The notes beneath the pieces are model-generated. The model did no database searches and had not been told where the DNA came from. It saw nothing but the letters and a program-made list of their open reading frames with translations. Source: Cellvibrio sp. KY-YJ-3 (lineage in GTDB: Bacteria > Pseudomonadota > Gammaproteobacteria > Pseudomonadales > Cellvibrionaceae). Taken from it: a DNA stretch of 64,000 nucleotides. A program made the translations under genes and the position numbers. Positions 3,901 through 35,754 of this stretch are shown piece by piece. The DNA lies in NCBI RefSeq assembly GCF_008806955.1, contig NZ_CP031727.1, positions 682,001 through 746,000 of the forward strand, in the 5' to 3' direction. How positions within the stretch are numbered: the stretch's first letter is position 1; each line of letters starts with the position of its first letter.

Positions 3901-5081
3901 CAACAGCAGCTGTTGATAACAGCTTTAAAATGAAATGTATTAATAATAATGTTCAGAAAATTAATGAGCTTTGGAAGGATAGATTACAAAAAAATATTAA
4001 CCCTCGAATAATTACGTTCTATTTGCCACAATTTCATCCATTTCCTGAAAATGACAAATGGTGGGGCTCAGGCTTTACAGAATGGACAAACGTTACCAAA
4101 GCCAAGCCCAATTTCATAAATCACTACCAACCTCGATTCCCTGCTGATTTGGGATATTACGACTTACGCCTTCCGGAGGTTATGGCCGCCCAAGCAGAAT
4201 TAGCAAAAAAATATGGTGTCGGCGCCTTTTGCTTTTACTATTACTGGTTTGATGGAAAACGCTTACTAGAAAGACCGATTGAACAGCTCCTTCAAAATAA
4301 AGATATCGAGATGCCATTCTGTGTATGCTGGGCCAATGAAAATTGGACTCGCCGCTGGGATGGGCAAGACCATGAAGTATTGATGGCTCAGGCTCACTCA
4401 CCATCTGATGACAGAGCAGTTATTCTCGATTTGATTCGTTATTTTAAAGATCATAGATACATAACTATTGATGGGCGGCCTTTAATTGTTATTTACAGGG
4501 TAACTCTCTTTCCCGACTTTAAAGCAACCGCTGCGCTCTGGCGTGAAGTTTGTCGTGAAGAAGGTATTGGTGAAATCTATATTGCAATGGTTGAATCTTT
4601 TGATTTGGTTCATGCCAAAACAAATCCCAAACAATTCGGCTGTGATGCAGCGGTTGAATTCCCACCTCAGGGACTTGCCGAACAAAAGCCGCCATCAGGA
4701 GAAATTATTAATCCAGATTTTGCCGGTCATGTAGCAGACTACCGAGAGCTAGCCATTCGCTACGCGACTCGCGAACAGCCCCCTTACACGCGATTTATGA
4801 GCGCAATGCCAGGCTGGGACAATAGTGCCAGACGTCAAAACAATAGCTTTTGTTTTGAAAATGCTACGCCAGGTGTTTTTCAAGCATGGCTTGAATCTAT
4901 TTTGGAACAGACTAGATTGCAATATTCCGGCGATGAAAGAATTGTGTTCGTTAACGCATGGAACGAGTGGGCAGAAGGCGCTTATTTAGAGCCAGACAAG
5001 CGCTTTGGGCATACCTATTTGGAAGCGGTGAGAAATGCCGTGGATGCATATAAATTTTTACGAAACGATTCGGAATCTTGA
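951..5081 (+). CDS. Giant multidomain glycosyltransferase: propeller-like N-domain, coiled coil, GT2 and WbsX-like domain
   Basis: This 1376-residue protein appears to join four modules. Residues 1-265 are beta-rich repeats resembling the DUF4915/TIGR03032 type. Residues about 280-600 are charged heptad-like coiled coil, ending in the SRSWKITAPLR segment that commonly precedes sugar-transferase domains. Residues about 765-1015 are a GT2 domain beginning LVSIILPVYNN, with DDAST, a NND metal-binding triad (YLNNDIQ) and EDSDLCLRI. Residues about 1017-1370 are a WbsX-like (GH99-related) domain starting ITFYLPQFHP, with WWGSGFTEW, CWANENWTRRWDG and VNAWNEWAEGAYLEP. It probably adds one or more sugars on the cytoplasmic side during polysaccharide assembly. 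The acceptor is unknown. It overlaps both neighbours. Confidence 0.85.
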   Translation: MTNLFNDLLISAPNHNGGLFFISERKFVRIDTLGTCGILFEKGKLVRGVQPDKAVIYATQQDEQNKEISDLQDIHDIFYLSGSYYIVCTMTNEIIQADSNLNEVRRWRFPGEADSMHINCVGTWNERIIFSAFGDFHLHRGYKEDSTRKGFVRDLLTGETLISGLSQPHSLAQHGNNLILANSQQHEIAEYLPNGELLRMKKMPGYTRGLTIIDNILYVGLSKSRNSQENTQSTASLVAVDLANFEILESIEAPCDEIYSIILLEKNTLRDNIEGLFTYALEKATEKVSITLKNAEAVVLADQKNEFDIEIREITKKWEMAQEQWNAHRTQLEIAIHSIRNERDASIAKSLENAQTEFEKQKQFIIEAHDKQMACTMEYNKKILDEAKEEKEQLLIDYQKLIAHAHAIQLEKDRETIDLNKKLVEQEIIATEKLSANQKYYDTKISNAEALIAEKNETIKLLQEQLQESKNYNQEIYAANFLQSEQFTDALAQTEVEIAQLRIKLQENETAIQERYQNTFLQSEKDNMTIDDLKTKNECLQAENNKLSVEISQHSSKEHAQRCHITELENTIDQRAYAWQRELQAIKAQHQSELDSILKSRSWKITAPLRLGRTAIGATKNNIKNSIANTYRKLPLSISRRKKIKDFLFTSVPWLFKDLATYKNWKAYKDLQAMSVEAVIEDNATNTTDVQIVANTQNLVYVASSHLAAADGHWEWANYASTKATIKKLQQKQRMIDPGDVDIIDLHNKPFDEVVKSIALPTLTDHPLVSIILPVYNNIKLTLECILSIQKYTDSSTSYEIIVTDDASTDETNHLLEKLANIKYIRNENNLGFLRNCNKALEHAQGEYIVYLNNDIQVSKDWLKNLHATFNVHPRVGAVGPKFIYPSGHLQEAGASFNFDGTSTMIGLNENPDQDRFSYTRRVDYVSGACLMLRTDLAKKLGGFSEEFLPCYCEDSDLCLRIEREGYFIYFNPSAVLIHHLSKTTAAVDNSFKMKCINNNVQKINELWKDRLQKNINPRIITFYLPQFHPFPENDKWWGSGFTEWTNVTKAKPNFINHYQPRFPADLGYYDLRLPEVMAAQAELAKKYGVGAFCFYYYWFDGKRLLERPIEQLLQNKDIEMPFCVCWANENWTRRWDGQDHEVLMAQAHSPSDDRAVILDLIRYFKDHRYITIDGRPLIVIYRVTLFPDFKATAALWREVCREEGIGEIYIAMVESFDLVHAKTNPKQFGCDAAVEFPPQGLAEQKPPSGEIINPDFAGHVADYRELAIRYATREQPPYTRFMSAMPGWDNSARRQNNSFCFENATPGVFQAWLESILEQTRLQYSGDERIVFVNAWNEWAEGAYLEPDKRFGHTYLEAVRNAVDAYKFLRNDSES

Positions 5082-5089
5082 GGTCGCCA

Positions 5090-6211
5090 ATGCAAAATTA
5101 CAACATACGATTGGTAGGTCATCCCTTTGCCCCTATTGGCATGGGTGAGCATTTAAGAAGCACATTTAGATCTCTGCGGGCAGCTAGTCTAATGCCCTCT
5201 ATTACAGATATTTATAAACTAAACACACCAACACACGAAGAACAAAATGAGCTTTTCCCAGCCTGCTCGGATACTCCAGCTTCTATAAATATTTATTGTA
5301 TTAATGGCAATGAAGTAGAACAGGCAGTAAAACATCTTTCCTATCAGGAAACATGGAGTGGCTATAACATCATTTATCCAGCTTGGGAGTTATCTCGTTA
5401 CCCTGAAACATGGGCAGCCCAATTAGATAAATTTGATGAAATTTGGGCATCATCAACTTTCACTTATGAAGCACTACGTAATGCCTGTAAAAAAGAAGTT
5501 GTGAAGTTACCGCTCGCATGCGGAGTATCTCTTAGCTCTTTTCTTGGCCGGCGCTACTTTCAAATTCCAGAATCAAGCTATGCATTTCTATTCTTCTTTG
5601 ATCTGAAATCCTATACGAGCAGAAAAAATCCCTATGCTGTAATAAATGCATTTAAACAATTACTCAAGTTGCGCCCCTATTCAAAAGCGCACTTGGTAAT
5701 TAAAATTAATGGGGCTGAAAGCAACCCAGAAGAATTTAAAAAAGTCACTGAAGCGCTTGGCATACTTGGTGATAATGCCACCTGCATAAGCCATACGATG
5801 ACAAGCAATGAAGTTAAAAATTTGCAACGTAACTGCGACTGTTTTATTTCTTTGCACCGTTCAGAAGGCTTTGGCTTTGGCATTGCAGAAGCAATGGCAT
5901 TTGGAAAACCTGTTATCGCTACCGCTTATTCAGGCAACCTAGAGTTTATGGATGCCAACGTTTCATATGGTGTGAACTATCAGCTTATTCCATTAGGTGA
6001 GAGTGACTATCCATTCGCTGATGGACAAGTTTGGGCTGATGCGGATTCGAATGAAGCAGCTCAGCATATGGCTTACCTTATCGACTCTCCTCAAACCGGC
6101 AGAGAAAAAGGTAAACAAGCACAAGCGCATATGGAAAAGAAATTTAGTCACCGGGCAATCGGGCTAAATTATTTGAACCGAATAGAGCGCATCCAAAACA
6201 CCTATAAGTAA
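5090..6211 (+). CDS. GT4-family glycosyltransferase
   Basis: A 373-residue GT-B-fold glycosyltransferase of the GT4 type. The donor-binding half carries the characteristic acidic motif in HRSEGFGFGIAEAM (about residues 255-268), followed by GKPVIATAYSGNLEF. The N-terminal IRLVGHPFAPIGMGEHLR is a typical glycine-rich acceptor-domain start. The ATG at 5090 is chosen over an in-frame TTG at 5078 because GAGG at 5080-5083 is correctly placed and overlaps the stop of the preceding gene. It is the third gene of a tight polysaccharide operon. Donor and acceptor sugars cannot be told from sequence. Confidence 0.85.
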   Translation: MQNYNIRLVGHPFAPIGMGEHLRSTFRSLRAASLMPSITDIYKLNTPTHEEQNELFPACSDTPASINIYCINGNEVEQAVKHLSYQETWSGYNIIYPAWELSRYPETWAAQLDKFDEIWASSTFTYEALRNACKKEVVKLPLACGVSLSSFLGRRYFQIPESSYAFLFFFDLKSYTSRKNPYAVINAFKQLLKLRPYSKAHLVIKINGAESNPEEFKKVTEALGILGDNATCISHTMTSNEVKNLQRNCDCFISLHRSEGFGFGIAEAMAFGKPVIATAYSGNLEFMDANVSYGVNYQLIPLGESDYPFADGQVWADADSNEAAQHMAYLIDSPQTGREKGKQAQAHMEKKFSHRAIGLNYLNRIERIQNTYK

Positions 6212-24103: not shown

Positions 24104-27043
24104 ATGAAGAGTTCTGCAAGTTTTAACCGGAAATTACTTTCCACCCTGATCGCCGCCAGTCTTGCCACGGGTGCCTACGCACAAGACCAAGGCTTGGAGG
24201 AAGTAGTAGTCACCGGTATTCGCGCGTCACTGACCAACTCTGTCAGTGTTAAACGCAATTCTGCCTCGGTAGTGGACGCCATCAGCGCTGAAGACATTGG
24301 CAAGCTGCCGGATACCACCATCGCCGACTCGCTGCAGCGTGTACCCGGCATTCAAATTCGCCGCAACGCCGGTGAAGGTTCAACCGTGAACGTGCGCGGT
24401 ATGCCGCAGGTGAGCACCCTGTTGAATGGTGAACAATTCCTGAGCGCGGGCTCTATCACCACCGCCCAACCCGAATTTACCGATATTCCCGCCGAACTGC
24501 TGTCGCGCGTGGATGTCATTAAATCTGCTCAGGCCTCAACCCTGGCGGCCGGTGTTGCAGGTACTATCGACCTGAAAACCCGTCGCCCCTTTGACCTGGA
24601 TTCAGGCTGGACTTTTGCGGGTTCTGCCGAAGCCTCACAAGGCCAGTACACCGATGACGATACCGGCCATAAAGTGAATGGTTTTGCCGGTTTTAATAAC
24701 GGTGACAACTTTGGCGCTCTGGTCAGTGTTTCCAATTCCGAAGCCACACTGGCCAACTACCGCTACGGTATGTACAGCGACTGGTGGTTCCGCGGTTATA
24801 ACGAAAATGGCGATTGGCCAGGCCGTGGCACACCTGCTGACCTGACTGGTGATGGCGATACCAACGACCAGGTTTTTGGCACCATCGACTACGGCGTTAC
24901 CAACCGTATGGCGGAGCGCGAGCGTACCGGTGTCTCGGCAACGACCCAATTCCAGGTGAATGATCGCGTTGAATTATTGGCCGATGTTTTTTACACCAAG
25001 ATGGACCAAGGCGATTACGTGAACGGCTTGATCGCCGATAACTCCTGGGCCCAGTACGACTGGGTTAGACCTGATGCTTCCACTCTGATCAATCGCGGCC
25101 CGGCGGTCGGTGGCAACGGTAAGGATTTTTACACCTCGTCCATTACCAACCTGGATGCCTTGCGGGTTATCGCCAAAGGCGAAACCCAAATAGATGAGCG
25201 CGAATCGCTGAACTTTAACCTGCAGGCCAATGTAGAGCTGACCGACAAGCTGAGCGGCTCGGTGCGCTACGCTCACGGCAATGCGACCAACGATCACACC
25301 GGCAGTTTTGCCGACGCACTACTGACCAGCGGCATGCAATCCGGCCTGCAAACCAGTTACGGCGGTGTAAAGGCGCCGGTTAACCCGGGTGGTTACGGCC
25401 CCAATGGCGAGCGCGTACCAGTGGTGGCCGACTTCTCCGGCAAACACCCCAGCATTCAATACCCCGCCGGTTTTGGTCAGGATATTAATAGCTACGGCTT
25501 GGTCTCCTCTTTCGCGCATCAAAACCGCGAAGAAGAATCGACGCTGGACGTGTTCCGCGTTGACGGTACTTACGACTTCCAGGACGGGGTAAAACTGGAC
25601 TTCGGCTATCGCTTTGCCGACCGCGAAATCGAACGCTACCAATATGATCTGATCGCTCCCTTTACCGTGAAAGATGCCAATGGCGCGGATGTCACTGTCT
25701 ACTCCAAATGGAAAGACTCAGGTATCGCCGGTGTGAAAGATGGCGACACCATTGCCCGCACCTTCAAGTTCACCGAGCTGCAAGAGCTGGGCTATATCCA
25801 TCAGGTGAGCGATTTTGGCCCGGTTAGCGATGGCAATAGCTACTACTTCATCAACCCCAAAGCGATGAAAAATACGGCGGCGTTCCACGAGGCGCTCTAC
25901 CCCGGCAACGTGCGACAAAAAGATGGCTCACAAAGTTTTGTAGTGGGCGACCAAACCCAAACCTTCTACATTCAAGGTTCATTTGAAGGTGAAGCTGGCC
26001 TGCCATATCAAGCCAACTTCGGTATGCAGTACGTAGAAACCAGCCTCGACATCACCCAATTTATCCCTTCGGTCGATACGACCAAGGTGACAGTGGATGG
26101 CGTGGTGTATCCGGCACTGGATGGTGTTGCACCGACTATCGCCGGTACCGAGGTAGTTGAACGCAAATTCAATGACTTCCTGCCACGTTTCAATATCGCC
26201 TTTGATACCAGCGAAGACACCAAGTTGCGCTTGGCCTACTCCAAAACCATGACCCAGTTGGATGCCAACGATCTGGGCTTGGGCCGCACCTATACCACCA
26301 ATAACAACCCCGAATTGGGTGTGTTCCAGGTGGTTAGCGCGTCGCAAAACGGCAACCCCTACATGGAGCCATGGCGCGCCGATAACCTGGATTTGAGCTA
26401 CGAGTGGTATTTCACCGAGAGCGGCATCCTGAGCCTGGGCATGTTCCGTGTGGATGTAGAAACCTCTATCGCCACTACCACGGTTCGAATTCCAACTGTC
26501 GCCGACTCGGACGGCGTCAACCGCAGACCGGGTGAAACCATGGATTTGACTACCCGTGGCAATACCGACGGCGGCGTGGTGAAGGGAATGGAATTGGGCT
26601 ATCAGCAAGCGTTTGATTTCTTGCCTGGCGCCTGGGGTGGTTTGGGTGCAACGGTAAACTATACCTTTACTGATGGCACCGGCGGCGAAAAAGACTTCTA
26701 TGGCGCAACTATGCCGATGGCCGATAACTCGGAAGATCAAGTCAACGCCGTGCTCTGGTACGAATACGACCGGTGGCAAGCGCGTGTTGCCTACAACTAC
26801 CGCAGCGAGCGTTTTATTGGTCGCGCCTGGAACGACGGCAGCCCGGCCGCTTGGTGGCAAGCGCCGACCTCATACGTGGATGTTTCGGTTAGTTATGACA
26901 TCAACGACAACCTGACGGTCTATGCGCAAGGCACCAATGTCACCGAAGAGTATGAAGAGACTTACATGCAATGGAGCGACGTAGTCGTTAACCAAAATGT
27001 GTATGAAGCTCGTTATACCCTGGGTGTCCGCGCCAAGTTCTAG
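24104..27043 (+). CDS. TonB-dependent receptor (TIGR01782-type, probable carbohydrate importer)
   Basis: The 979-residue outer-membrane receptor has a signal peptide ending GAYAQDQ, then the TonB box region LEEVVVTGIRASL, and a plug domain with IGKLPDTTIADSLQRVPGIQI and GEGSTVNVRGMPQV. A long beta-barrel ends in aromatic Phe (VRAKF), as required for Bam-mediated insertion. The extended plug start and size match TIGR01782 receptors found with glycan-utilisation genes in Cellvibrio, Xanthomonas and Caulobacter. It is convergent with a tryptophan-halogenase-like gene. Its promoter carries two LacI-like operators, suggesting sugar-responsive control. The substrate is unknown. Confidence 0.93.
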   Translation: MKSSASFNRKLLSTLIAASLATGAYAQDQGLEEVVVTGIRASLTNSVSVKRNSASVVDAISAEDIGKLPDTTIADSLQRVPGIQIRRNAGEGSTVNVRGMPQVSTLLNGEQFLSAGSITTAQPEFTDIPAELLSRVDVIKSAQASTLAAGVAGTIDLKTRRPFDLDSGWTFAGSAEASQGQYTDDDTGHKVNGFAGFNNGDNFGALVSVSNSEATLANYRYGMYSDWWFRGYNENGDWPGRGTPADLTGDGDTNDQVFGTIDYGVTNRMAERERTGVSATTQFQVNDRVELLADVFYTKMDQGDYVNGLIADNSWAQYDWVRPDASTLINRGPAVGGNGKDFYTSSITNLDALRVIAKGETQIDERESLNFNLQANVELTDKLSGSVRYAHGNATNDHTGSFADALLTSGMQSGLQTSYGGVKAPVNPGGYGPNGERVPVVADFSGKHPSIQYPAGFGQDINSYGLVSSFAHQNREEESTLDVFRVDGTYDFQDGVKLDFGYRFADREIERYQYDLIAPFTVKDANGADVTVYSKWKDSGIAGVKDGDTIARTFKFTELQELGYIHQVSDFGPVSDGNSYYFINPKAMKNTAAFHEALYPGNVRQKDGSQSFVVGDQTQTFYIQGSFEGEAGLPYQANFGMQYVETSLDITQFIPSVDTTKVTVDGVVYPALDGVAPTIAGTEVVERKFNDFLPRFNIAFDTSEDTKLRLAYSKTMTQLDANDLGLGRTYTTNNNPELGVFQVVSASQNGNPYMEPWRADNLDLSYEWYFTESGILSLGMFRVDVETSIATTTVRIPTVADSDGVNRRPGETMDLTTRGNTDGGVVKGMELGYQQAFDFLPGAWGGLGATVNYTFTDGTGGEKDFYGATMPMADNSEDQVNAVLWYEYDRWQARVAYNYRSERFIGRAWNDGSPAAWWQAPTSYVDVSVSYDINDNLTVYAQGTNVTEEYEETYMQWSDVVVNQNVYEARYTLGVRAKF

Positions 27044-27046
27044 GTA

Positions 27047-27069
27047 GAACGGGAGCCAGCCTCCCGTTC
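27047..27069 (+). terminator. Hairpin directly after the TBDR gene
   Basis: GAACGGGAG pairs perfectly with CTCCCGTTC around the loop CCAGC, starting four bases after the stop codon. It has no T-tract and may protect the mRNA 3' end ahead of the strong terminator that follows. Confidence 0.5.
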
Positions 27070-27083
27070 AAATAATCCGGAAG

Positions 27084-27124
27084 CCCATAAAAAAACTCTG
27101 CCTGGTGCAGAGTTTTTTTATGGG
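27084..27124. terminator. Strong bidirectional intrinsic terminator
   Basis: A perfect 18-bp stem (27084-27101 with 27107-27124) with loop CTGGT contains seven A on one arm and seven T on the other. It separates the convergent TBDR and halogenase-like genes. Confidence 0.9.
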
Positions 27125-27149
27125 TATAAGAATCAGGCCGAAAAGCACC

Positions 27150-28655
27150 TCAACCCGATAATTGCCAGCGCATCAACAGCGCGCGATGGTCGTTAAAGTT
27201 CAAACTGCAGCGACGCAAAAATTCATCGACAGCAGCGATGTCGAAACACGCCTCCTCCGCAGTTGCCCTACGCAGCTGTTCACCTTTGGGCACAATTCCC
27301 ATGCCGGTAAAAATGCTGTACCAGGAAGGTGCCGGATAATAATTGCCCAGCTGGAGCCGATTAATTTCCGCCGCTAAATCCTTACCGGCATACCAGCTGC
27401 GGTACAACTCCAACATAACTGGCGATACATCCTGCTGATTGGCAGTGTTAGCGCACCAATAGTCAGTGTCGCGCCGCGAACTGGTTTTGTAGTGGGTAAC
27501 AATATAATCGCGCACGCCATCAAAATGATTATTCATACGTTGATTAAATTCAGCCTGTAGCCGATTGGTAAATTCCCCACGCGCAAAATATTCCGCAAAA
27601 ATCGCGACCGTCTGCTGCACCAAAAATAACGCGGTCGCTTCCAACGGTTCGATAAAACCCTGCGCTAATCCCACCGCCAAACAATTGTGCGCCCAGTGCT
27701 GCTCCACCCGCCCAATTTTCATTTTCAAATGACGTACCGGTACGTCAGCATCCAATAACCCCAAGTGCGCACGCAATTCTGTTTCGGCTTGATCTGCCGA
27801 GCAAAAATCAGCGCTATACACATAACCATTGCCATAGCGATTGGTGAGTGGAATTTGCCAGGCCCAACCGCACGACATTGCAGTCGCAAGTGTTTGCGAT
27901 GGAATTTTTTCACCAATAGTGGAAGGCATAGCCACAGCCGCATTGTTCAACAAATTATTGGCGTAACTTATAAAGGGAACCTGCAAGGTTTGTTGCAGCA
28001 ACAAGCTGGAAAAACCGGTGCAGTCGACAAAAAAATCAGCAGCGATAATGCGCTGGTCCGCCGACTGCACGCTGGCAATATCACCATTTTCCCGTTGCTG
28101 TACCGCAACGACATGCGCAGACTCATGAATAACCCCCAGAGCCAGCGCTTTTTTCCGCAAAAATTGCCCGAGCAATGTGGAGTCAAAGTGATAGCCGTAA
28201 TGCACGTCAAACGGAAAATGCTCCGGCGCTACAGGTGCAAGGCATTGTTGTGCCAGACGCGCAGCAATAAAAAAGCGATCGGGTTGAGCGTAAACATCCG
28301 CACCACGCAAACGCATTTGCGCGTTGTGCATAAACATCGGCAAGGTCTGGCGATCCAAGGCCGCCGAAAAAGGATGGAAATAGGATTCAAAACCAGCGTG
28401 GGTTGACCAGCCATCAAAGCGAATACCGCACTTGTAGGTGGCGTTGCATGCGGGCATCCACTCACTTTCCGCGATATTCAAACGATCAAAAAATAATTTA
28501 AGTGCAGGTGTTGAACCTTCCCCCACGCCAATAATGCCAATGTCGGGAGATTCAATTACACGGATACTGACCCCCTGCTGAATCCACTCGCGCGCCATAA
28601 CCAACGCACTCATCCAGCCAGCGGTACCACCACCGACAATCACGATATTTTTCAT
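27150..28655 (-). CDS. Tryptophan-halogenase-family flavoprotein
   Basis: A 501-residue FAD-dependent halogenase-family protein. It has the dinucleotide motif VGGGTAGWMSA (about 7-17), GVGEGSTP near the flavin, the lysine in TYKCGIRFDGW (the position of the catalytic lysine in PrnA), and the halogenase signature WAWQIP. All key motifs are intact. Nevertheless, members next to TIGR01782 TBDRs in glycan-degrading bacteria have no demonstrated tryptophan chlorination, and the natural substrate may be a TBDR-imported compound. It is convergent with the TBDR. A LacI-like box lies 55 bp upstream of the start. Confidence 0.88.
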   Translation of the reverse strand: MKNIVIVGGGTAGWMSALVMAREWIQQGVSIRVIESPDIGIIGVGEGSTPALKLFFDRLNIAESEWMPACNATYKCGIRFDGWSTHAGFESYFHPFSAALDRQTLPMFMHNAQMRLRGADVYAQPDRFFIAARLAQQCLAPVAPEHFPFDVHYGYHFDSTLLGQFLRKKALALGVIHESAHVVAVQQRENGDIASVQSADQRIIAADFFVDCTGFSSLLLQQTLQVPFISYANNLLNNAAVAMPSTIGEKIPSQTLATAMSCGWAWQIPLTNRYGNGYVYSADFCSADQAETELRAHLGLLDADVPVRHLKMKIGRVEQHWAHNCLAVGLAQGFIEPLEATALFLVQQTVAIFAEYFARGEFTNRLQAEFNQRMNNHFDGVRDYIVTHYKTSSRRDTDYWCANTANQQDVSPVMLELYRSWYAGKDLAAEINRLQLGNYYPAPSWYSIFTGMGIVPKGEQLRRATAEEACFDIAAVDEFLRRCSLNFNDHRALLMRWQLSG

Positions 28656-28800: not shown

Positions 28801-29688
28801 ATGGCTTCTGTTCAAGTACAGGTGACCCGTTTTCTAAGGCTAATGGGCATAGTTGCGCTCTTTTCTGCCGCCTCCGCCACTGGTGATGTATTGCAGGTTA
28901 AATACATAGGCAATAACCATCAGGTCAGCGAACAATATTATCTTGCGCTGATTGCCGCTGCGCTTGAAACCACGCGCGCCAGCCATGGCCCTTATCACAT
29001 CAATTTTTCTGAACAGACACTCACGTCCGAACGCAAACACGAGTTGTTGATTGCGGGTGACGCGTTGAATATTGATCGCCTGGTTGGCTTTCCGGTTGCG
29101 CAGGGGCCGCGGTTGAAATTACTCCGCATTGACCAACCTATATTGCAAGGCGCCATGGGCTACCGGGTGCTGTTGATTCACAAGGATAACCAGGCGCTAT
29201 TTGACAAAATTTATGCACTCAACGAACTGCGCCAATTATCGATGGGTTTTGGACGCGGCTGGGAGGGGCATGTCTACACCCACAATCAATTTGCGGTAAC
29301 TGAATCGCTGAACATGACCAGCCTGTTAAAAATGTTAGCGGCGCAGCGCTATATGTTTGTGCCCTTGAGCATTATTGAAATAGAAGATAATTATCTGCTG
29401 GACGGCGAGCGGGCCAAGAATCTGGCCATTGAAAAAAACCTGCTGCTCTATATGCCGCTGCCGGTTTATTTTTATGTGAGCCCCAATGCCCCCGAACTGG
29501 CAGAGCGACTGCAAAGTGGGTTACAGACCTTGAGCAAATCGGGTGCAATGGATGATTTATTTCGACAACACTTTGGCAGCCGATTGCAACGGCTCAACCT
29601 GTCCAAGCGCCGCTTGATCAAGTTGCAAAACCCCGACCAAAGTAGCGACTACCCCGAACAACATCATCAATGGTTAGGTAATTATTAA
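28801..29688 (+). CDS. Periplasmic substrate-binding-like protein (type 2 PBP fold)
   Basis: The 295-residue protein has a signal-like N-terminus (hydrophobic to about residue 27). A pattern typical of transporter substrate-binding domains follows: NELRQLSMGFGRGWEG around residues 140-155, LLKMLAAQRYMFVPLSIIEIE around 176-196, and a C-terminal LQSGLQTLSKSGAMDDLFRQHFG. No permease or ATPase is adjacent, so it may be an orphan sensor or binding protein rather than part of an ABC importer. It is divergent from the halogenase-like gene and shares the LacI-like box. Its stop is only three bases from the stop of the convergent haemoglobin gene. Confidence 0.6.
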   Translation: MASVQVQVTRFLRLMGIVALFSAASATGDVLQVKYIGNNHQVSEQYYLALIAAALETTRASHGPYHINFSEQTLTSERKHELLIAGDALNIDRLVGFPVAQGPRLKLLRIDQPILQGAMGYRVLLIHKDNQALFDKIYALNELRQLSMGFGRGWEGHVYTHNQFAVTESLNMTSLLKMLAAQRYMFVPLSIIEIEDNYLLDGERAKNLAIEKNLLLYMPLPVYFYVSPNAPELAERLQSGLQTLSKSGAMDDLFRQHFGSRLQRLNLSKRRLIKLQNPDQSSDYPEQHHQWLGNY

Positions 29689-29691
29689 CCG

Positions 29692-30117
29692 CTAGTGGTA
29701 GACAACATCTTTATAAGTCGGCGCCAATTTTGCGAGCAACCGGTTTTGCGTTGCAACCGGCACACCACATTGTTCCATGGCCAAAATCAAATCATCCACA
29801 ATCGCATTAAATTCGGTGTTGGTGTAGTTATACCCGGCGTGAATGGTTTTCATGGAGTCCCCCTGATATTCGCAAGGGCCTTGCACCAGGGCGCAGACAT
29901 AATTGGTAAACCCGATTTTAAATTTCTGCATATTCACGCCTTTGAAGCGATGTTTTACCCGCTCGTCTTGTGCGAAATTTAAAATCATCTGATGGGTAAT
30001 ATTGGCAATTCCCTCGCGTTGACCCAGCGCATCGTAAAGCGAGGGCTCTCTGGGTGAACTTGTGCAGGCGGATAGCAACAAAAAAATACTCATCATTAAC
30101 ATCGGGCGCAGTAACAT
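29692..30117 (-). CDS. Lipoprotein group 1 truncated haemoglobin
   Basis: Starting at ATG 30117 (GGGGAG upstream, three bases after the preceding stop), the 141-residue product has a lipobox LLSAC, with Cys followed by Thr, which predicts an outer-membrane lipoprotein facing the periplasm. The globin part begins SLYDALGQREGIANI. It contains the expected proximal histidine in IHAGYNYTNTEF (compare AHAGL-I in trHbN proteins). The distal B10 Tyr typical of trHbN seems replaced by Ile in THQMILNFAQDERV (alignment by eye). An exported globin could bind oxygen or nitric oxide or handle haem in the periplasm. It is the last gene of a five-gene operon with cyclic-di-GMP enzymes. Confidence 0.82.
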   Translation of the reverse strand: MLLRPMLMMSIFLLLSACTSSPREPSLYDALGQREGIANITHQMILNFAQDERVKHRFKGVNMQKFKIGFTNYVCALVQGPCEYQGDSMKTIHAGYNYTNTEFNAIVDDLILAMEQCGVPVATQNRLLAKLAPTYKDVVYH

Positions 30118-30119
30118 TA

Positions 30120-31040
30120 TTAAAAACTCCCCTGCAGCGATAAATACCAACCGGTTTGATCTTTAAAGGTGGCCACTTCACCCAAGTCCACATAAGCAGC
30201 AACCAGCGCTACGCGTTTATTAGGAAACCAGCCAACAAATACTGTCTGCCAGTCATCCTCTTTAATAAAGGATAAGTTGTTGGGCTTTTGGCGATATTCG
30301 GTGCCCAGAAGCCAATGGCGATTCACTAAGACACCCGCGGATATCTCTGGCAGCAATTCATAGTCATCATTTTTATCGCCGCCAAAACCCACCAATCCGG
30401 TTTGATTGGCCTTGGTATAACGCAAGTTCGCATTGAGTAATAAATTGCGGTGCAACAATCCACCCAGAATTAATTTGGTGGCAGTGAAATTGATATCGGT
30501 GCCCGAATCGTCCTTTGCACCAACCGCTGCAGGCACCAAAAAATCCAGATTCTTTTTATGCTGAACGCCAATACTCAGCTGCGGTAGCCGTGTATAAATT
30601 AAATCGCCGGCCACACGCACCTTGGCAGAAATAATTCGCTGGCTAATGGAATCGCTCGGCAGGGACAAGGCGGCGGTTAAAGAATCGTGAGTCAGTTTTT
30701 GCTGCGCGATGGATAGCTCCACGCGATTGCGCCAACTCCAGCTGCCGCCAATCGCTTCCAATTGATAATCGCCGGTATCCACATAACTTGCAAAGGCGGT
30801 AGCGCTCTGCTCTTCCTGCGCGCCGTAACCGGAAATAACCGCCATAGGCACTATGCCACCACCGGCACTGCCTTCAATGGTTGTTGCGCCGCCGGTTGCC
30901 AATAAGCGGCTGCGCTTGATGGGTTGGTCGGCCGCCAAATCAGTATCGGTAACCGCGTGCACAAACAATGTTGGCAGCAATAACACAATACTCAATAACA
31001 TTTTGGGGACAGTCATTTTTTTGATAGCCATTATTTTCAT
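30120..31040 (-). CDS. DUF3034 family outer-membrane protein
   Basis: A 306-residue exported protein. The signal peptide ends near LFVHAVTD. The mature part starts with LLATGGATTIEGSAGGGIVP, the recognisable DUF3034 pattern, and continues as alternating beta strands with a C-terminal Phe (LSLQGSF), consistent with an outer-membrane barrel. The function of DUF3034 is not known. ATG 31040 overlaps the upstream stop (ATGA) with GGAG upstream. It lies between a GGDEF-EAL protein and the lipoprotein globin, so pore, sensor or anchor roles in the same envelope pathway are possible. Confidence 0.82.
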   Translation of the reverse strand: MKIMAIKKMTVPKMLLSIVLLLPTLFVHAVTDTDLAADQPIKRSRLLATGGATTIEGSAGGGIVPMAVISGYGAQEEQSATAFASYVDTGDYQLEAIGGSWSWRNRVELSIAQQKLTHDSLTAALSLPSDSISQRIISAKVRVAGDLIYTRLPQLSIGVQHKKNLDFLVPAAVGAKDDSGTDINFTATKLILGGLLHRNLLLNANLRYTKANQTGLVGFGGDKNDDYELLPEISAGVLVNRHWLLGTEYRQKPNNLSFIKEDDWQTVFVGWFPNKRVALVAAYVDLGEVATFKDQTGWYLSLQGSF

Positions 31041-33364
31041 GCGCGCAACTCCGCCAGATACCGATTCACCCACTGGATAAAATCTTCCGCTGGTAGCGGC
31101 TTGCTATACAAGTAGCCTTGAGCGGTATCGCAGCCGTAATCTTTTAATAAGGTTTTAATCGCCTCGGATTCAACACCTTCCGCCGTAATGCTCAAGCCGA
31201 GGGTATGCCCTAAATCAATCGTGGAGCGCACAATCAATTGATCATCAGCGCTGGTGTCCAAATTTAAAATAAAAGATTTATCAATTTTTAATTCCGAAAC
31301 CGGCAATTTTTTTAATTGCGAGAGCGACGAATAACCAGTGCCAAAATCATCAATCGACAAGGTCAAACCCAGGTCGCGCAAACGGCGCAAATTATTCAGG
31401 CATTTATCGGCCTCGCGCATGATGGCGCTCTCGGTAATTTCCAATACCAAATGCTCGGCAGGTACACGTTGTGACTGCAACAACTCCGCGACATAGGCCG
31501 GCAGGTCATCCACTAGCAAATCAAGCGCCGAGAGGTTCACCGAGCAGGTGATATTAATCTGCAGATCCAACAAACGACGCAAATGGGTTACTGCCGTTTT
31601 TAACGCCCAGCGCGTGAGCAAGGTAATTTGCCCGGAACTTTCTATGACACTGATAAATTCATCCGGGCTAACAAAACCCATCTCCGGATGGTGCCAGCGC
31701 ACCAGCGCTTCCGAACCCAGGTTATCGGGCTGATCCAAATTTATTTTCGGCTGGTAGTACAAACTGATATGGCCGGCATTTAACGAGGGTTCAAATTCGC
31801 GAAACAAATGCAAACGGCGCAAATGTTTTTCATCCCAACCCGGTTGATACCAACAGCTGCGCTGTTCGCTCGCGCGCCCCTCATTTAAGGCGAGATTAGC
31901 GCGGCGCAACAACGAATCCGCCGAATCGGCATCCGCCGGATAGGTCGCCAAACCGATATTCATTTCCACACTGACTTGAATACCGCTGACCTGTAGTGGC
32001 GTTTTAAACCCGGCATGGATCAATTCAACCAGCTCATTCACCGTCTCTTTATCGGGCGCCATTAAAATAGCTAAAAACTCATCGCTACCAAACCGCAATA
32101 CTTCACCGTGCGTTAACAACCGGTGAATTTTTTGGCCGACTTCGCGCAACACCGCATCGCCAATTTCCTGGCTGAGTTCATCGTTGATCTGGGTAAAATT
32201 TTTAATATCTATCACTAACAAAAATACGGCTTGTTTCAGCGGTCGCGAGCGCGAAATCGCCTCTTCCAAACGCGGAAAAATTACCAGCCGATTAGGCAGG
32301 CCGGTCAGCGGATCATGCTCTGATTGATACAACACTTGCTGTTCACGCTCACCAATCGCTTTTTGCATGCTGATAAAAGCGCGTGCCAAATCGCCCAACT
32401 CATCATTGGATTTCACCGCAATCGGGGTGGAATAAAAACCACCGGCAATGCGCCGCGCAATTGTGGCTAACAAGGTCACCGGGCGCGTGACGCTGCGCGC
32501 TAAAAATAATGCCGCTATACCGGCAAGCACAGAAAACACCAACGCCAGCACAAACAACTGCACATTTAAATGCGAAAAGTGCGCGAGGGATTGGCTTAAA
32601 GATACCTGTAATACGGCAATCAACTGCTGGTTTTGACGCGCCGCCGGCACCGCCAGGGAAATAAAATCGTCATAGATAAATACATCGCCCAACTTCTCGC
32701 GCTGTGTTAATTGGCGAATTAAATTCTGTGGTTGCTCATGGCTAAGCGTGCCGTTGAGATAATGAAAGCCATCGTCTAACTGACTGACAAACGACACTTC
32801 CAGACCGGTCAGTTTGCGCAGTTCTGCGCTGAAATCCTGTTTTATTTCAAAACCCATTCCCGCAAGGCCAATTACCACTGGCGCCTTGACCGTAAACATT
32901 ACAAATTGGTAGGCGCGACCATCCACAAAAATAATGTCATACGCCTGACCGCGGCGCTGGGCCTGATCTTGCAAGTTGGCAAATTCATCGCCCACCTGCA
33001 ATGCAAAACTTTCACTGCTGGCCACTAATTTGCCATCGCGACCAATCATCACACCGATATCCGCTTTCACCCGCGCCGAGTGATTCATTAATGCCGAGGC
33101 AATGGTTTTTTCATCGTTAGTGGCTACCGCATCCTTAAAGCCAAAATCTTCCGTAAGCACTTTTACCGAGAGCGCCAACTGCTCAACATTTTTTTGCATG
33201 ATGCGCGTAAACAACTCGCCACCAGCGAGTAATTCAACACGCGCATTTTGTGTCACCGCTTTATTAATGATGACACGTGTCGCGAGGTAGGAAATCGTTT
33301 CCAGCACAATCACTAACCCGATTAAAAAAGTTAGCAATTTGAGCAGATAACTAAACTTTGGCAT
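31037..33364 (-). CDS. Membrane GGDEF-EAL protein with periplasmic sensor and HAMP
   Basis: The 775-residue protein has a first membrane segment (about 10-32), a large periplasmic sensor (about 35-260, Cache-like) and a second segment (about 265-290). HAMP (about 290-345), GGDEF (about 350-510) and EAL (about 525-770) follow. The cyclase motif is degenerate, FGSDEF instead of GGDEF. The phosphodiesterase motifs are intact: SEALVRW, LEITESAIM, DDFGTGYSSL, KIDKSF and AEGVES. It is therefore most likely a cyclic-di-GMP phosphodiesterase, with GGDEF as a GTP-sensing or structural module. It is encoded between a cupredoxin-like protein and the DUF3034 barrel. Confidence 0.9.
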   Translation of the reverse strand: MPKFSYLLKLLTFLIGLVIVLETISYLATRVIINKAVTQNARVELLAGGELFTRIMQKNVEQLALSVKVLTEDFGFKDAVATNDEKTIASALMNHSARVKADIGVMIGRDGKLVASSESFALQVGDEFANLQDQAQRRGQAYDIIFVDGRAYQFVMFTVKAPVVIGLAGMGFEIKQDFSAELRKLTGLEVSFVSQLDDGFHYLNGTLSHEQPQNLIRQLTQREKLGDVFIYDDFISLAVPAARQNQQLIAVLQVSLSQSLAHFSHLNVQLFVLALVFSVLAGIAALFLARSVTRPVTLLATIARRIAGGFYSTPIAVKSNDELGDLARAFISMQKAIGEREQQVLYQSEHDPLTGLPNRLVIFPRLEEAISRSRPLKQAVFLLVIDIKNFTQINDELSQEIGDAVLREVGQKIHRLLTHGEVLRFGSDEFLAILMAPDKETVNELVELIHAGFKTPLQVSGIQVSVEMNIGLATYPADADSADSLLRRANLALNEGRASEQRSCWYQPGWDEKHLRRLHLFREFEPSLNAGHISLYYQPKINLDQPDNLGSEALVRWHHPEMGFVSPDEFISVIESSGQITLLTRWALKTAVTHLRRLLDLQINITCSVNLSALDLLVDDLPAYVAELLQSQRVPAEHLVLEITESAIMREADKCLNNLRRLRDLGLTLSIDDFGTGYSSLSQLKKLPVSELKIDKSFILNLDTSADDQLIVRSTIDLGHTLGLSITAEGVESEAIKTLLKDYGCDTAQGYLYSKPLPAEDFIQWVNRYLAELRA

Positions 33365-33376
33365 TCCGGGTTCCGG

Positions 33377-34024
33377 TTAAAACAAGTTGGAGTAATCGTC
33401 TGCTGGCGCAGCGTTATCGGGAGGGTTCAGCTTCTCCAGGCGAATAGTCTGCGCTGCTGCACTCTCATTTAACTGCACCGCACTTGCCGGGTAGTCGCCG
33501 GGCAAACGGGGATGATAGACCTGTAATTGATAGCTGCCTGCAGGTGCGCTGATGCTCACCTTGCCGGTGTTATCGGTCACTGCAAAATACTCGCTGTCCA
33601 CCACATAAATATAGGCCACCATGGAATCGTGAATATTACAGCCCAGCACTACAGTGCCTGGTTTATCAAACACTACTGGCTCCGCGGTCATACCGTGATA
33701 GAGACGCAACTCAAATTTTTTCGCTGGCGAAAAGGAATAGACGTGGTGGCGAACATCGTCGCCATTGGGAAAACGCACCTGGGTATTGGTGCGAATGGCG
33801 AGCACCTTGGGCACAAACATATTCTGCCGCTGGTCCATCAGTGCGGTAGGTACATCGGTGTAATTGGGTTGCTGCGCGGGAATCAGGGCGATAACCCCAT
33901 CTGCCAGCGGTGCACCGTCGGCGTCTACCAAGGTCGCCGTAAATTGCGCCGCAGCGACATTCATGGAGATAAGAAAAAAGCTGCACCACAAGGGGACTTT
34001 GCTAACCCAAAAAAAATATTTCAT
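33377..34024 (-). CDS. Secreted cupredoxin-like protein (methylamine-utilisation-type)
   Basis: The 215-residue protein has a signal peptide ending NVAAAQ. Its plastocyanin-like domain carries putative type 1 copper ligands: His in RHHVYSF, then Cys, His and Met spaced as CNIHDSM (about residues 122-128). A second beta domain around 145-190 looks like a carboxypeptidase-regulatory (Ig-like) fold. Databases often call such proteins methylamine utilisation proteins, but no mau genes are here. It may be a periplasmic electron carrier or copper sensor. It overlaps the upstream diguanylate cyclase gene by 4 bp (ATGA) and is followed after 12 bp by the GGDEF-EAL gene. Confidence 0.8.
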   Translation of the reverse strand: MKYFFWVSKVPLWCSFFLISMNVAAAQFTATLVDADGAPLADGVIALIPAQQPNYTDVPTALMDQRQNMFVPKVLAIRTNTQVRFPNGDDVRHHVYSFSPAKKFELRLYHGMTAEPVVFDKPGTVVLGCNIHDSMVAYIYVVDSEYFAVTDNTGKVSISAPAGSYQLQVYHPRLPGDYPASAVQLNESAAAQTIRLEKLNPPDNAAPADDYSNLF

Positions 34025-35754
34025 TGTGCAATATCTCTTATTAATTCGCAGCGATTGCGACCATTGGCTTTGGCGCGGTACAGCGCTTTGTCGGCGCGTT
34101 CAAATGCACTGGCTAAATCATCGCCCGCTTTAAATTCGGTTAATCCAATAGAGATGCTGATGGACATAGGTTGGTTTTTGTAATTAAACGCCGCCTTGGC
34201 AATTGCCTCACGCAATTTTTCCAACACCACGAGCGCAGATTCGGCATCGGTTTCCGGCATAAATGCCACAAACTCTTCGCCGCCATAGCGACAGAAAAAA
34301 TCCACTTCACGCAGGCGTTTGGCAATCGAGCGCCCAATTACTTTAATCACTCGGTCGCCCGCCTGATGACCAAAGTTATCGTTTATCTTTTTAAAATAAT
34401 CGATATCAAAAATCGCAATCGTCAATGGCCGTTGGTAGCGCTGCCAGCGCTGCACTTCTGCTACGGCGCGTTCGTTGTAGGCCTCGCGGTTAGGCAGCTC
34501 AGTGAGCGGGTCATGCAATGCTTTGTGCCGATGTTTTTCCAGACTGGAGCGATTTTGCTCCGCCTCACTTTCCATCAGTTTTATTTTTTCGCCCAGCGTC
34601 GCTAACTGCTGCGCCAATTGATGTTGGTTGATATCGCTGCTCTGGTACTGATCAATTGCCTGGCGAATATTGCCAATCTGGGATTTCACCCGGTCTTTGA
34701 GTTGATTGATGTCGGTGGCACTATTGGCACTGGTTTCCAAATCACTCATCTCGCGCATTACGTCGTCTTGTAACTTGCGCGATGCCGCGAGTTCCTGTTG
34801 GTTATTTTTAACCGCGCCGCCCAACAACCCATAAATTTCGGCCAATTCCTGATTGACGTTTTTTAAATAATTGGCAAACGCCTGATTCGCCGCGAGGTAG
34901 GCCTCCATCACCAGATCGCGCACAGCCTCCAGTGTTGGGATTAGCGCTGTTTGTGCCAACCCATTCGCCACCTGGCGGCGGATAGCATCAACCTTGTCCT
35001 TTATCGCCGCTTCATTTTCAAGGCTGAGTAAAAACTGGTTCAGCACCCGTGCAATTTCCTCAGCATATTCCGGTGCCAGTTCAGGCACCTGACTTTTGGC
35101 GCGCGGGGCAATGTTCAGGGAAACGCGCGCCTCCTCGCGATGCTGTTCCAGCGCCGCTTGCGATTCTTCCTGTGCCAATGCATCAGGGTTATCCATATCT
35201 GCCAAGAGATCGGCGGCAGTCGTTTGAGGCTCCGCTTTGGCTCCCAGTAAGCGTTCAAAAAAACCGGTCTTTGGCTGTTCGATTTCCTCCAGCGCCAACT
35301 GTTGGATTTTGGCCAGCTGCTGCAACAGCGCCGGATAGAGGCGCACTTTCTTACTACGCTGGGGCAGCTGGGAAAGATAATCGCCCAACTCTTTTTTTAC
35401 ACTGCGCGACAATTTGAATTGCTGCAACGGTTTGGTCACGTCCATCAACGCCTGGCGCACATCCTGCGAGCCCTGTTCGCGCTGCTGCTCAAAGCTCAAC
35501 GCCGCACGCTCCAACTGTTGGAGAATGTCGGACATATCCACCGTGCTCATATCGCCACGCAGCTTTTCACGCAGGCTGGCGAGAATCCGATCCAGTACTT
35601 CATCCTGTCCATCGGCGGCAATGCTCACGCGCACCAACGCGCTGCGCAAAATGGCCTGCTGCTCGGCAAACTTTTTTTCCAGCTGATCCTGTTCATCAAG
35701 CGCATTCAAATACTTTTCGCGCCAGTTATTTTTATCGCTGTTATTTGCTGTCAT
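34021..35754 (-). CDS. Cytoplasmic diguanylate cyclase with long helical N-terminus
   Basis: The 577-residue protein has no membrane segment. Residues 1-400 are helical and coiled-coil-rich. Residues about 410-575 form a GGDEF domain with intact YGGEEF and a canonical inhibitory site REVD five residues before it, so active synthesis with product feedback is expected. Its position next to dsbA and cytochrome c4 matches the P. aeruginosa locus carrying a GGDEF protein (PA5487), so it is probably the orthologous conserved cyclase. It opens the five-gene minus-strand operon that ends with the lipoprotein globin. Confidence 0.88.
   Translation of the reverse strand: MTANNSDKNNWREKYLNALDEQDQLEKKFAEQQAILRSALVRVSIAADGQDEVLDRILASLREKLRGDMSTVDMSDILQQLERAALSFEQQREQGSQDVRQALMDVTKPLQQFKLSRSVKKELGDYLSQLPQRSKKVRLYPALLQQLAKIQQLALEEIEQPKTGFFERLLGAKAEPQTTAADLLADMDNPDALAQEESQAALEQHREEARVSLNIAPRAKSQVPELAPEYAEEIARVLNQFLLSLENEAAIKDKVDAIRRQVANGLAQTALIPTLEAVRDLVMEAYLAANQAFANYLKNVNQELAEIYGLLGGAVKNNQQELAASRKLQDDVMREMSDLETSANSATDINQLKDRVKSQIGNIRQAIDQYQSSDINQHQLAQQLATLGEKIKLMESEAEQNRSSLEKHRHKALHDPLTELPNREAYNERAVAEVQRWQRYQRPLTIAIFDIDYFKKINDNFGHQAGDRVIKVIGRSIAKRLREVDFFCRYGGEEFVAFMPETDAESALVVLEKLREAIAKAAFNYKNQPMSISISIGLTEFKAGDDLASAFERADKALYRAKANGRNRCELIRDIAQ

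Follow-up and report, generated by a model that had tools for sequence, protein, structure and literature searches.

The locus

The 64,000-nucleotide stretch analyzed here (the window) comes from Cellvibrio sp. KY-YJ-3, whose 4.49-Mb genome is a single contig. Between positions 35754 and 29692 it carries a run of five minus-strand genes coding for a diguanylate cyclase, a secreted copper protein (hereafter CUP), an inner-membrane receptor, a DUF3034 protein, and an exported globin. An earlier note on this DNA had described five genes with spacings of -4, +12, -4, and +2 bp, and the coordinates of the open reading frames (ORFs) bear this out, the junctions being, in gene order, an ATGA overlap, 12 bp, a second ATGA overlap, and 2 bp. 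The domain families named there also stand, by Pfam for four of the genes and by fold and profile for the cupredoxin. The features used below are as follows.

34021-35754, minus strand: DgcP-like diguanylate cyclase, with DGCcoil (PF20975) and GGDEF domains, the latter with the motif GGEEF
33377-34024, minus strand: CUP, a secreted type-1 copper protein with an N-terminal cupredoxin domain and a C-terminal immunoglobulin (Ig)-like domain, by predicted fold, Foldseek, and profile comparison with the PDB
33620-33748, minus strand: predicted copper ligands of CUP, His93, Cys129, His132, and Met135 (C-x2-H-x2-M), from an alignment of 143 rows
31037-33364, minus strand: inner-membrane receptor, by Pfam a periplasmic dCache_3 domain, HAMP, a degenerate GGDEF (GSDEF), and an intact EAL
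32696-33211, minus strand: the dCache_3 periplasmic sensor domain (Pfam), common to receptors beside CUP in other genomes
31097-31795, minus strand: the EAL phosphodiesterase domain (Pfam), whose catalytic residues are the same in all 135 cassette rows
30120-31040, minus strand: DUF3034 protein (Pfam DUF3034, 1.9e-109; ATG start), a predicted outer-membrane beta-barrel
29692-30117, minus strand: exported lipoprotein group 1 truncated hemoglobin (Bac_globin, 5e-11; ATG start), with an LSAC lipobox and Cys18
29839-29895, minus strand: globin Cys75/Cys82 pair (a probable disulfide) and proximal His93 (F8), kept in 150, 149, and 152 of 152 rows, respectively

A conserved cassette of four genes

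The conserved unit at this locus consists of four genes, namely those for the copper protein, the dCache_3-HAMP-GGDEF-EAL receptor, the DUF3034 barrel, and the exported group 1 globin, and not of five. The association is real and better conserved than the earlier note could know, with its unit and emphasis corrected here. A scan of named genomes yielded at least 437 confirmed DUF3034 loci, of which the best 80 were kept, a sample leaning to close relatives; genomes drawn by taxonomic rank (274 from the class, 398 from the phylum, and 100 from the family) were added to offset this lean. DUF3034 was found in 15 of the class, 39 of the phylum, and 31 of the family genomes (one of the 31 with fragments only), and in 13 of 72,556 plasmid records. 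The 162 loci compared below comprise the 80 from the named-genome scan and 82 others, with some genomes represented twice (for example, L016/L156 and L017/L226). The nearest named locus among the matches listed is that of Cellvibrio sp. 79, with 85% identity in DUF3034.

In 142 of the 162 loci, the complete set of four genes fits into 4.5 kb; in one of the 142 (L178), the EAL gene is on the opposite strand, beyond the globin. A DUF3034 match above 100 bits is present in 160 loci, with a globin nearby in 154 of these, and some of the loci lacking the full set are contig ends (L043 and L092). The gene order is not peculiar to this strain: the co-occurrence of five families in the window's order, as envisaged earlier, holds for four of them, in 123 loci, and fails for the first gene, dgcP, which is lineage-specific. 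Other arrangements are DUF3034-globin-CUP-EAL on a Caballeronia plasmid (L152), an EAL-CUP pair divergent from DUF3034-globin on a plasmid of the alphaproteobacterium Novosphingobium (L153) and in six genomes (L208-L213) that belong to another class; L093 and L199 show inversions. Because the same genes occur in different orders, more than one order must have been inherited. Of the 39 phylum-draw genomes with DUF3034, 30 have the four genes linked (hand count). Named Gamma-, Beta-, and Alphaproteobacteria carry the set, as does one metagenome-assembled genome labeled Acidobacteria, so its assembly is far from chance.

The copper protein beside receptors with different outputs

The converse search, starting from CUP, covered the same 398 phylum genomes, which are related and not independent. 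It gave 59 matches of at least 110 bits, 33 of them beside DUF3034 and 26 not; CUP at this score was present in 38 of the 39 genomes with DUF3034 (missing from G342) versus 15 of the 359 others (hand count). A dCache-type receptor adjoins 48 of the 59 CUP genes, 30 of the 33 with DUF3034 and 18 of the 26 without it (hand count). Sorted by hand, 13 of these 26 have a dCache_3 GGDEF-EAL receptor as neighbor, 5 have a receptor of different output, 7 have neither of these, and 1 is at a contig edge. Five genomes (G521, G473, G485, G648, and G506) have a CUP-EAL pair elsewhere in the same genome.

The other outputs recognized by Pfam in the phylum draw are a nucleotide cyclase domain (Guanylate_cyc; L247 and L254), a protein kinase domain (Pkinase; L268), and hybrid histidine kinases (L269 and L270). 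The 274 class genomes were also searched for CUP and 29 further loci were examined, adding Guanylate_cyc in L271, L275, and L276, HisKA in L273, Pkinase in L278-L281, and EAL in L272 (Pfam) and L274 (our own model). Pfam dCache_3 gave 151 matches in 89 of the class genomes (summed by hand), and such a domain lies within 3 kb of 14 of the 23 CUP genes scoring at least 100 bits there, the fraction expected by chance being about 0.001, in a calculation that used 157 matches and took the mean genome to be 3.2 Mb. It is this constancy of a dCache-type sensor as neighbor, while the output changes, that most strongly argues for CUP being part of the receptor. CUP is thus probably a component of the sensing device and may act as a periplasmic copper-redox co-receptor. 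The earlier proposal that the periplasmic sensor reads the copper protein gains support from these output swaps, whereas c-di-GMP (cyclic di-GMP) as the essential output is not supported, given the cyclase and kinase versions.

In 13 of the 26 loci without DUF3034 (L245, L246, L250, L255, L256, L259, L260, and L262-L267), CUP has beside it a member of a secreted family, about 412 residues long; 10 of these 13 members end in an aromatic residue. Three members tested had no Pfam match, and comparison of the family with a clean DUF3034 alignment detected no relation (hhalign probability 1.7). The family is probably a second outer-membrane barrel front end. DUF3034-like barrels seemingly present behind the EAL gene in L249, L253, and L258 were rejected as shadows of the EAL frame: the first model had been built from over-extended ORFs, and the clean model finds none.

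Features of the cassette proteins

Residue counts are from alignments of proteins encoded within 8 kb of a DUF3034 match and scoring at least 95 (CUP), 60 (globin), 380 (EAL receptor), or 200 bits (DUF3034), with identical proteins taken once and weaker and broken copies excluded. The window CUP has no Pfam model above the cut-off; among 64 members of the family compared with Pfam at an E value of 0.01, 15 matched Cupredoxin_1, 4 Copper-bind, and 49 CarboxypepD_reg. A CUP profile matched chains of nitrite reductase, amicyanin, and pseudoazurin in the PDB, and the single window sequence found no such chains. The predicted model (predicted local distance difference test [pLDDT] score of 92) has a cupredoxin beta-sandwich fold, for which Foldseek retrieved amicyanin, pseudoazurin, and NirK folds over about 90 to 130 residues (6hbe, 5fc9, and 4hcf among the matches). 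His93 is present in 143 of 143 rows, and Cys129, His132, and Met135 are each present in all 142 ungapped rows (one row is gapped; rows below 95 bits are excluded). In its fold, its H-C-H-M ligands, and its C-x2-H-x2-M spacing, which is that of amicyanin, CUP resembles amicyanin, pseudoazurin, and plastocyanin. It differs from them in having a second, Ig-like domain and in adjoining mostly receptors, not dehydrogenases or reductases. A plasmid-borne relative is annotated as a "methylamine utilization protein."

At the positions that we take to be catalytic in EAL domains (E552, N610, E642, D672, D673, K693, E729, and Q749), the receptor is invariant in 135 of 135 cassette rows (rows below 380 bits excluded) and in 148 of 148 when 13 noncassette paralogs are added. 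The GG[DE]EF motif of an active cyclase, replaced by GSDEF in the window, is canonical in 24 of the 135. With the EAL residues invariant and the GGDEF motif mostly degenerate, the receptor is most likely a phosphodiesterase.

The DUF3034 protein is predicted to have a signal helix and to form a closed outer-membrane beta-barrel of 12 long strands (pLDDT, 87). Its nearest Foldseek neighbors are FapF, OmpG, and NanC, with a best E value of 1.8e-07, about 8 to 11% identity, and TM-scores (template modeling scores) below 0.5 by query length.

The globin matches the HbN group at 1e-12 as a single sequence and at 1e-24 as a profile, and the source genome has one other globin of the same family. Like HbN, it is a group 1 truncated hemoglobin with the proximal His; unlike HbN, it is exported, usually has a lipobox Cys (Cys at this position in 127 of 152 rows, with a strict lipobox pattern in 89), keeps a conserved Cys pair, and has an apolar distal pocket. 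HbN-type nitric oxide (NO) dioxygenases have Tyr at B10 and Gln at E11. In columns set by alignment with HbN, the cassette globins have L, I, V, or M at B10 in 150 of 152 rows (Tyr in 1) and L, F, I, or M at E11 in all 152, so the polar pocket of the dioxygenase is absent from this alignment. An HbN-type NO dioxygenase activity is therefore unlikely; by analogy with NO sensors, NO or carbon monoxide (CO) would be a better fit to the apolar pocket than O2. The invariant copper ligands, the proximal His, and the signal and lipobox sequences agree with the earlier prediction of an exported heme protein together with a copper protein.

A proposed cupredoxin-coupled envelope receptor

The gene set, the copper and heme ligands, the EAL residues, the output swapping, and the cross-genome association are established at the level of sequence. 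The best explanation of the whole, to which we give about an even chance of being correct, is that the genes from 34024 to 29692 code for a cupredoxin-coupled envelope receptor. The periplasmic type-1 copper protein would dock on the dCache_3 domain of the inner-membrane receptor. The cytoplasmic output, here the EAL c-di-GMP phosphodiesterase, would be set by the redox state of the copper protein or by the complex that it forms with the outer-membrane components. In the outer membrane, the lipoprotein globin would pair with the DUF3034 barrel, and the two would deliver or generate the redox signal, which might be an oxidant, NO, or another heme ligand; both the direction of the effect on the output and the ligand of the globin we infer. 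A broader version, somewhat more tentative, is that type-1 copper proteins form a general, hitherto undescribed class of periplasmic co-receptors of dCache sensors that report the redox state of the envelope to at least four outputs (c-di-GMP hydrolysis, cyclic nucleotide synthesis, Ser/Thr phosphorylation, and histidine phosphorelay), with DUF3034-globin as one of several outer-membrane front ends.

Several observations weigh against this receptor. The classical role of type-1 copper proteins is to carry electrons and not to act as receptors. No adjoining receptor of this type is seen for 11 of the 59 CUP genes (8 of the 26 without DUF3034, one being at a contig edge, and 3 of the 33 with it), nor for the CUP of L277 (126 bits), and no sensor lies near any of 18 lower-scoring relatives (below 100 bits; L282-L299), 7 of which are near MauG-type peroxidases. 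Among the kinase-type receptors, L273 apart, the sensor profile gives low scores (63, 59, 35, 46, 33, 49, and 43 bits for L268-L270 and L278-L281, respectively): L269 and L270 lack a Pfam dCache_3 match and have weaker HisKA matches, and L280 and L281 match dCache_1 instead; the dCache_3 match of L273 is below the threshold. The receptor is 1.8 kb from CUP in L278; in L272 and L274 it lies upstream, some 0.8 kb away; and a di-heme peroxidase (CCP_MauG) gene (4940-5950, minus strand) separates CUP from the hybrid histidine kinase in L269. In eight loci, two of which (L043 and L092) are cut by contig ends, DUF3034 and globin have neither CUP nor EAL near them, and the barrel-globin and CUP-EAL halves are therefore separable. 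Finally, mirror-tree coevolution statistics over 136 loci (partial r of 0.50 for DUF3034-globin, 0.33 for CUP-sensor, and 0.11 for sensor-DUF3034) agree with CUP as a receptor part but are weak, the CUP-sensor signal beyond the EAL control being modest.

Alternative explanations

Some of these points would sit well with an envelope redox enzyme system, for instance one that scavenges NO or peroxide and includes its own electron carrier, in which the receptor regulates motility or biofilm under the same conditions without contacting CUP, the barrel, or the globin. Cupredoxins do carry electrons, the globin belongs to the HbN group, a peroxidase-like fragment in L270 parallels the di-heme peroxidase gene between CUP and the kinase in L269, and the lower-scoring cupredoxins include the seven near MauG-type enzymes. 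However, the globin has apolar residues at B10 and E11 in place of the Tyr/Gln of HbN, and CUP still adjoins a receptor in 18 of the 26 loci from which DUF3034 and the globin are absent. We consider this account unlikely.

Sensing of copper itself, with copper-loaded and apo-CUP signaling differently to the receptor, would make direct use of the invariant copper ligands and of a receptor that changes its output. It is nonetheless quite improbable: the site is a complete type-1 site, which serves electron transfer and is not typical of copper chaperones or sensors, and no copper-resistance family was recognized by eye, from first residues, in the 40 most widespread clusters of flanking genes.

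A little less probable again is that all five genes form one unit, with DgcP and the EAL receptor as an antagonistic pair. Its appeal lies in the ATGA overlap of dgcP and CUP in the window and in the position of dgcP directly upstream of the cassette in 17 of the 31 family genomes with DUF3034, the window included. Yet just 18 loci among the 162 have a DgcP-like cyclase (above 300 bits), every one of them from the window's lineage and with two genomes represented a second time by L016 and L017, and four same-genus genomes without DUF3034 (L240-L243) retain cc4-dsbA-dgcP with no cassette. In L240, L241, and L243, the gene directly behind dgcP is 70 to 73% identical to the gene following the cassette in L172, which L224 and L228 carry as well; L242 has a different gene behind dgcP. 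As the gene behind dgcP matches the gene behind the cassette, the four genes represent a clean insertion or loss. A fifth DUF3034-free genome of the genus (L244) has dgcP in another setting. The five-gene operon as one conserved unit is rejected on this comparison, and the cyclase gene is a resident of the cc4-dsbA-dgcP locus, outside the conserved cassette. Its DGCcoil-GGDEF architecture and dsbA/cc4 neighbors are those of DgcP (PA5487) of Pseudomonas, the neighbor order being the one that we take to hold in P. aeruginosa; the Pseudomonas cassette loci, on the other hand, have no dgcP in the flanks examined. PA5487 is named as an active cyclase in the consulted part of PMC9355167. Because the cassette sits behind dgcP, a maker and a breaker of c-di-GMP are probably cotranscribed in the window's lineage.

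Lastly, that DUF3034 and the globin form a heme or siderophore acquisition device, with the signaling genes reporting heme supply, is very improbable, for although a barrel and an exported heme-binding fold lie near each other in 154 of 160 loci, the barrel of 12 long strands has no plug domain among its Pfam matches and no heme-uptake family was recognized by eye in the same 40 flank clusters.

Upstream regulation and genomic surroundings

Regions upstream of CUP outside the dgcP loci, with CUP starts chosen by rule, were compared with the FliA consensus, TAAA-N14-16-GCCGATAA. Matches at 11 or more of the 12 positions occur in 14 of 125 regions, against 0.1 in shuffled sequences (rows within a genus are not independent), and are absent from the other 111. 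The 14 (L023, L026, L030, L049, L051, L057, L064, L070, L077, L080, L152, L190, L201, and L217) comprise all six Xanthomonas, one Caballeronia plasmid, four of the Pseudomonas oryzihabitans group, P. quercus, and two genomes of one genus. Both strands of the 5.82 Mb of locus sequence together have 10 perfect sites, and 7 of these fall at CUP upstream regions. The window operon has no minus-strand match at this level. These sites hint that, in several lineages, the cassette may be part of the flagellar regulon, and, where present, such a promoter would tie it to motility. Boxes for Anr/FNR, Fur, NsrR, ArcA, and sigma54 showed no clear enrichment upstream, and a sigma-S-like -10 element (CTA..CT), found in 29 of 101 upstream regions versus 10.9 expected, was discarded as too loose. 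The string CGTGATCTTC lies upstream of CUP in 7 of 22 aligned Pseudomonas cassettes (L020, L036, L039, L040, L045, L054, and L075).

As a functional clue, the 40 most widespread flank clusters gave lineage-specific loci, save for a scattered GGDEF-type cluster and a few mixed clusters. In the window, a convergent plus-strand gene (28801-29688) for a periplasmic solute-binding-like product (weak SBP_bac_3 match, 0.0077) ends 3 bp from the end of the globin gene. Farther along (24104-28655) lie a TonB-dependent-receptor-like gene on the plus strand and a tryptophan-halogenase-like gene on the minus strand, both named by eye; relatives of the latter (TRPH) occur near the cassette or dgcP in several loci of the window's lineage. 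Also by eye, the DUF3034 gene of L203 (8938-9762), which is without its usual partners, adjoins a sulfide:quinone oxidoreductase-like gene, and in L178 the CUP, DUF3034, and globin genes are followed by a FadL-like gene, the opposite-strand EAL gene standing beside di-heme-like and imelysin-type-like genes.

Relation to known systems and implications

The YfiBNR and HmsCDE systems consist of an outer-membrane lipoprotein, a periplasmic partner, and an inner-membrane c-di-GMP enzyme. Compared by layout only, the present cassette is of the same type, having an outer-membrane part, a periplasmic partner, and a membrane c-di-GMP enzyme; it differs in that the partner is a type-1 copper protein, in the additional barrel and globin, and in the swapping of the output among c-di-GMP, cyclic nucleotide, and kinase versions. 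A tripartite envelope layout feeding c-di-GMP thus appears to be of an already known kind, and the copper co-receptor idea would be the novel part. A 2022 review of c-di-GMP sensing (PMC8846402) lists HmsC/HmsD as redox-responsive, and the words "copper" and "cupredoxin" are absent from its main text. Literature searches, confined to an open-access library, showed no description of the cassette. Six words for its context are all absent from a paper on a Shewanella benthica globin (PMC11904497), the part consulted of an iron-oxidizer genome paper that treats globins (PMC3770913) mentions no such cluster, and papers with the term "DUF3034" (PMC12548924 and PMC4255298) concern, in the parts consulted, other genes.

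Since the same CUP adjoins both cyclase and kinase receptors, the idea is testable in several unrelated bacteria with different read-outs. If true, it would provide a first function for DUF3034 and for the accompanying "methylamine utilization protein," and copper redox chemistry would join the known mechanisms by which bacteria detect extracytoplasmic conditions.

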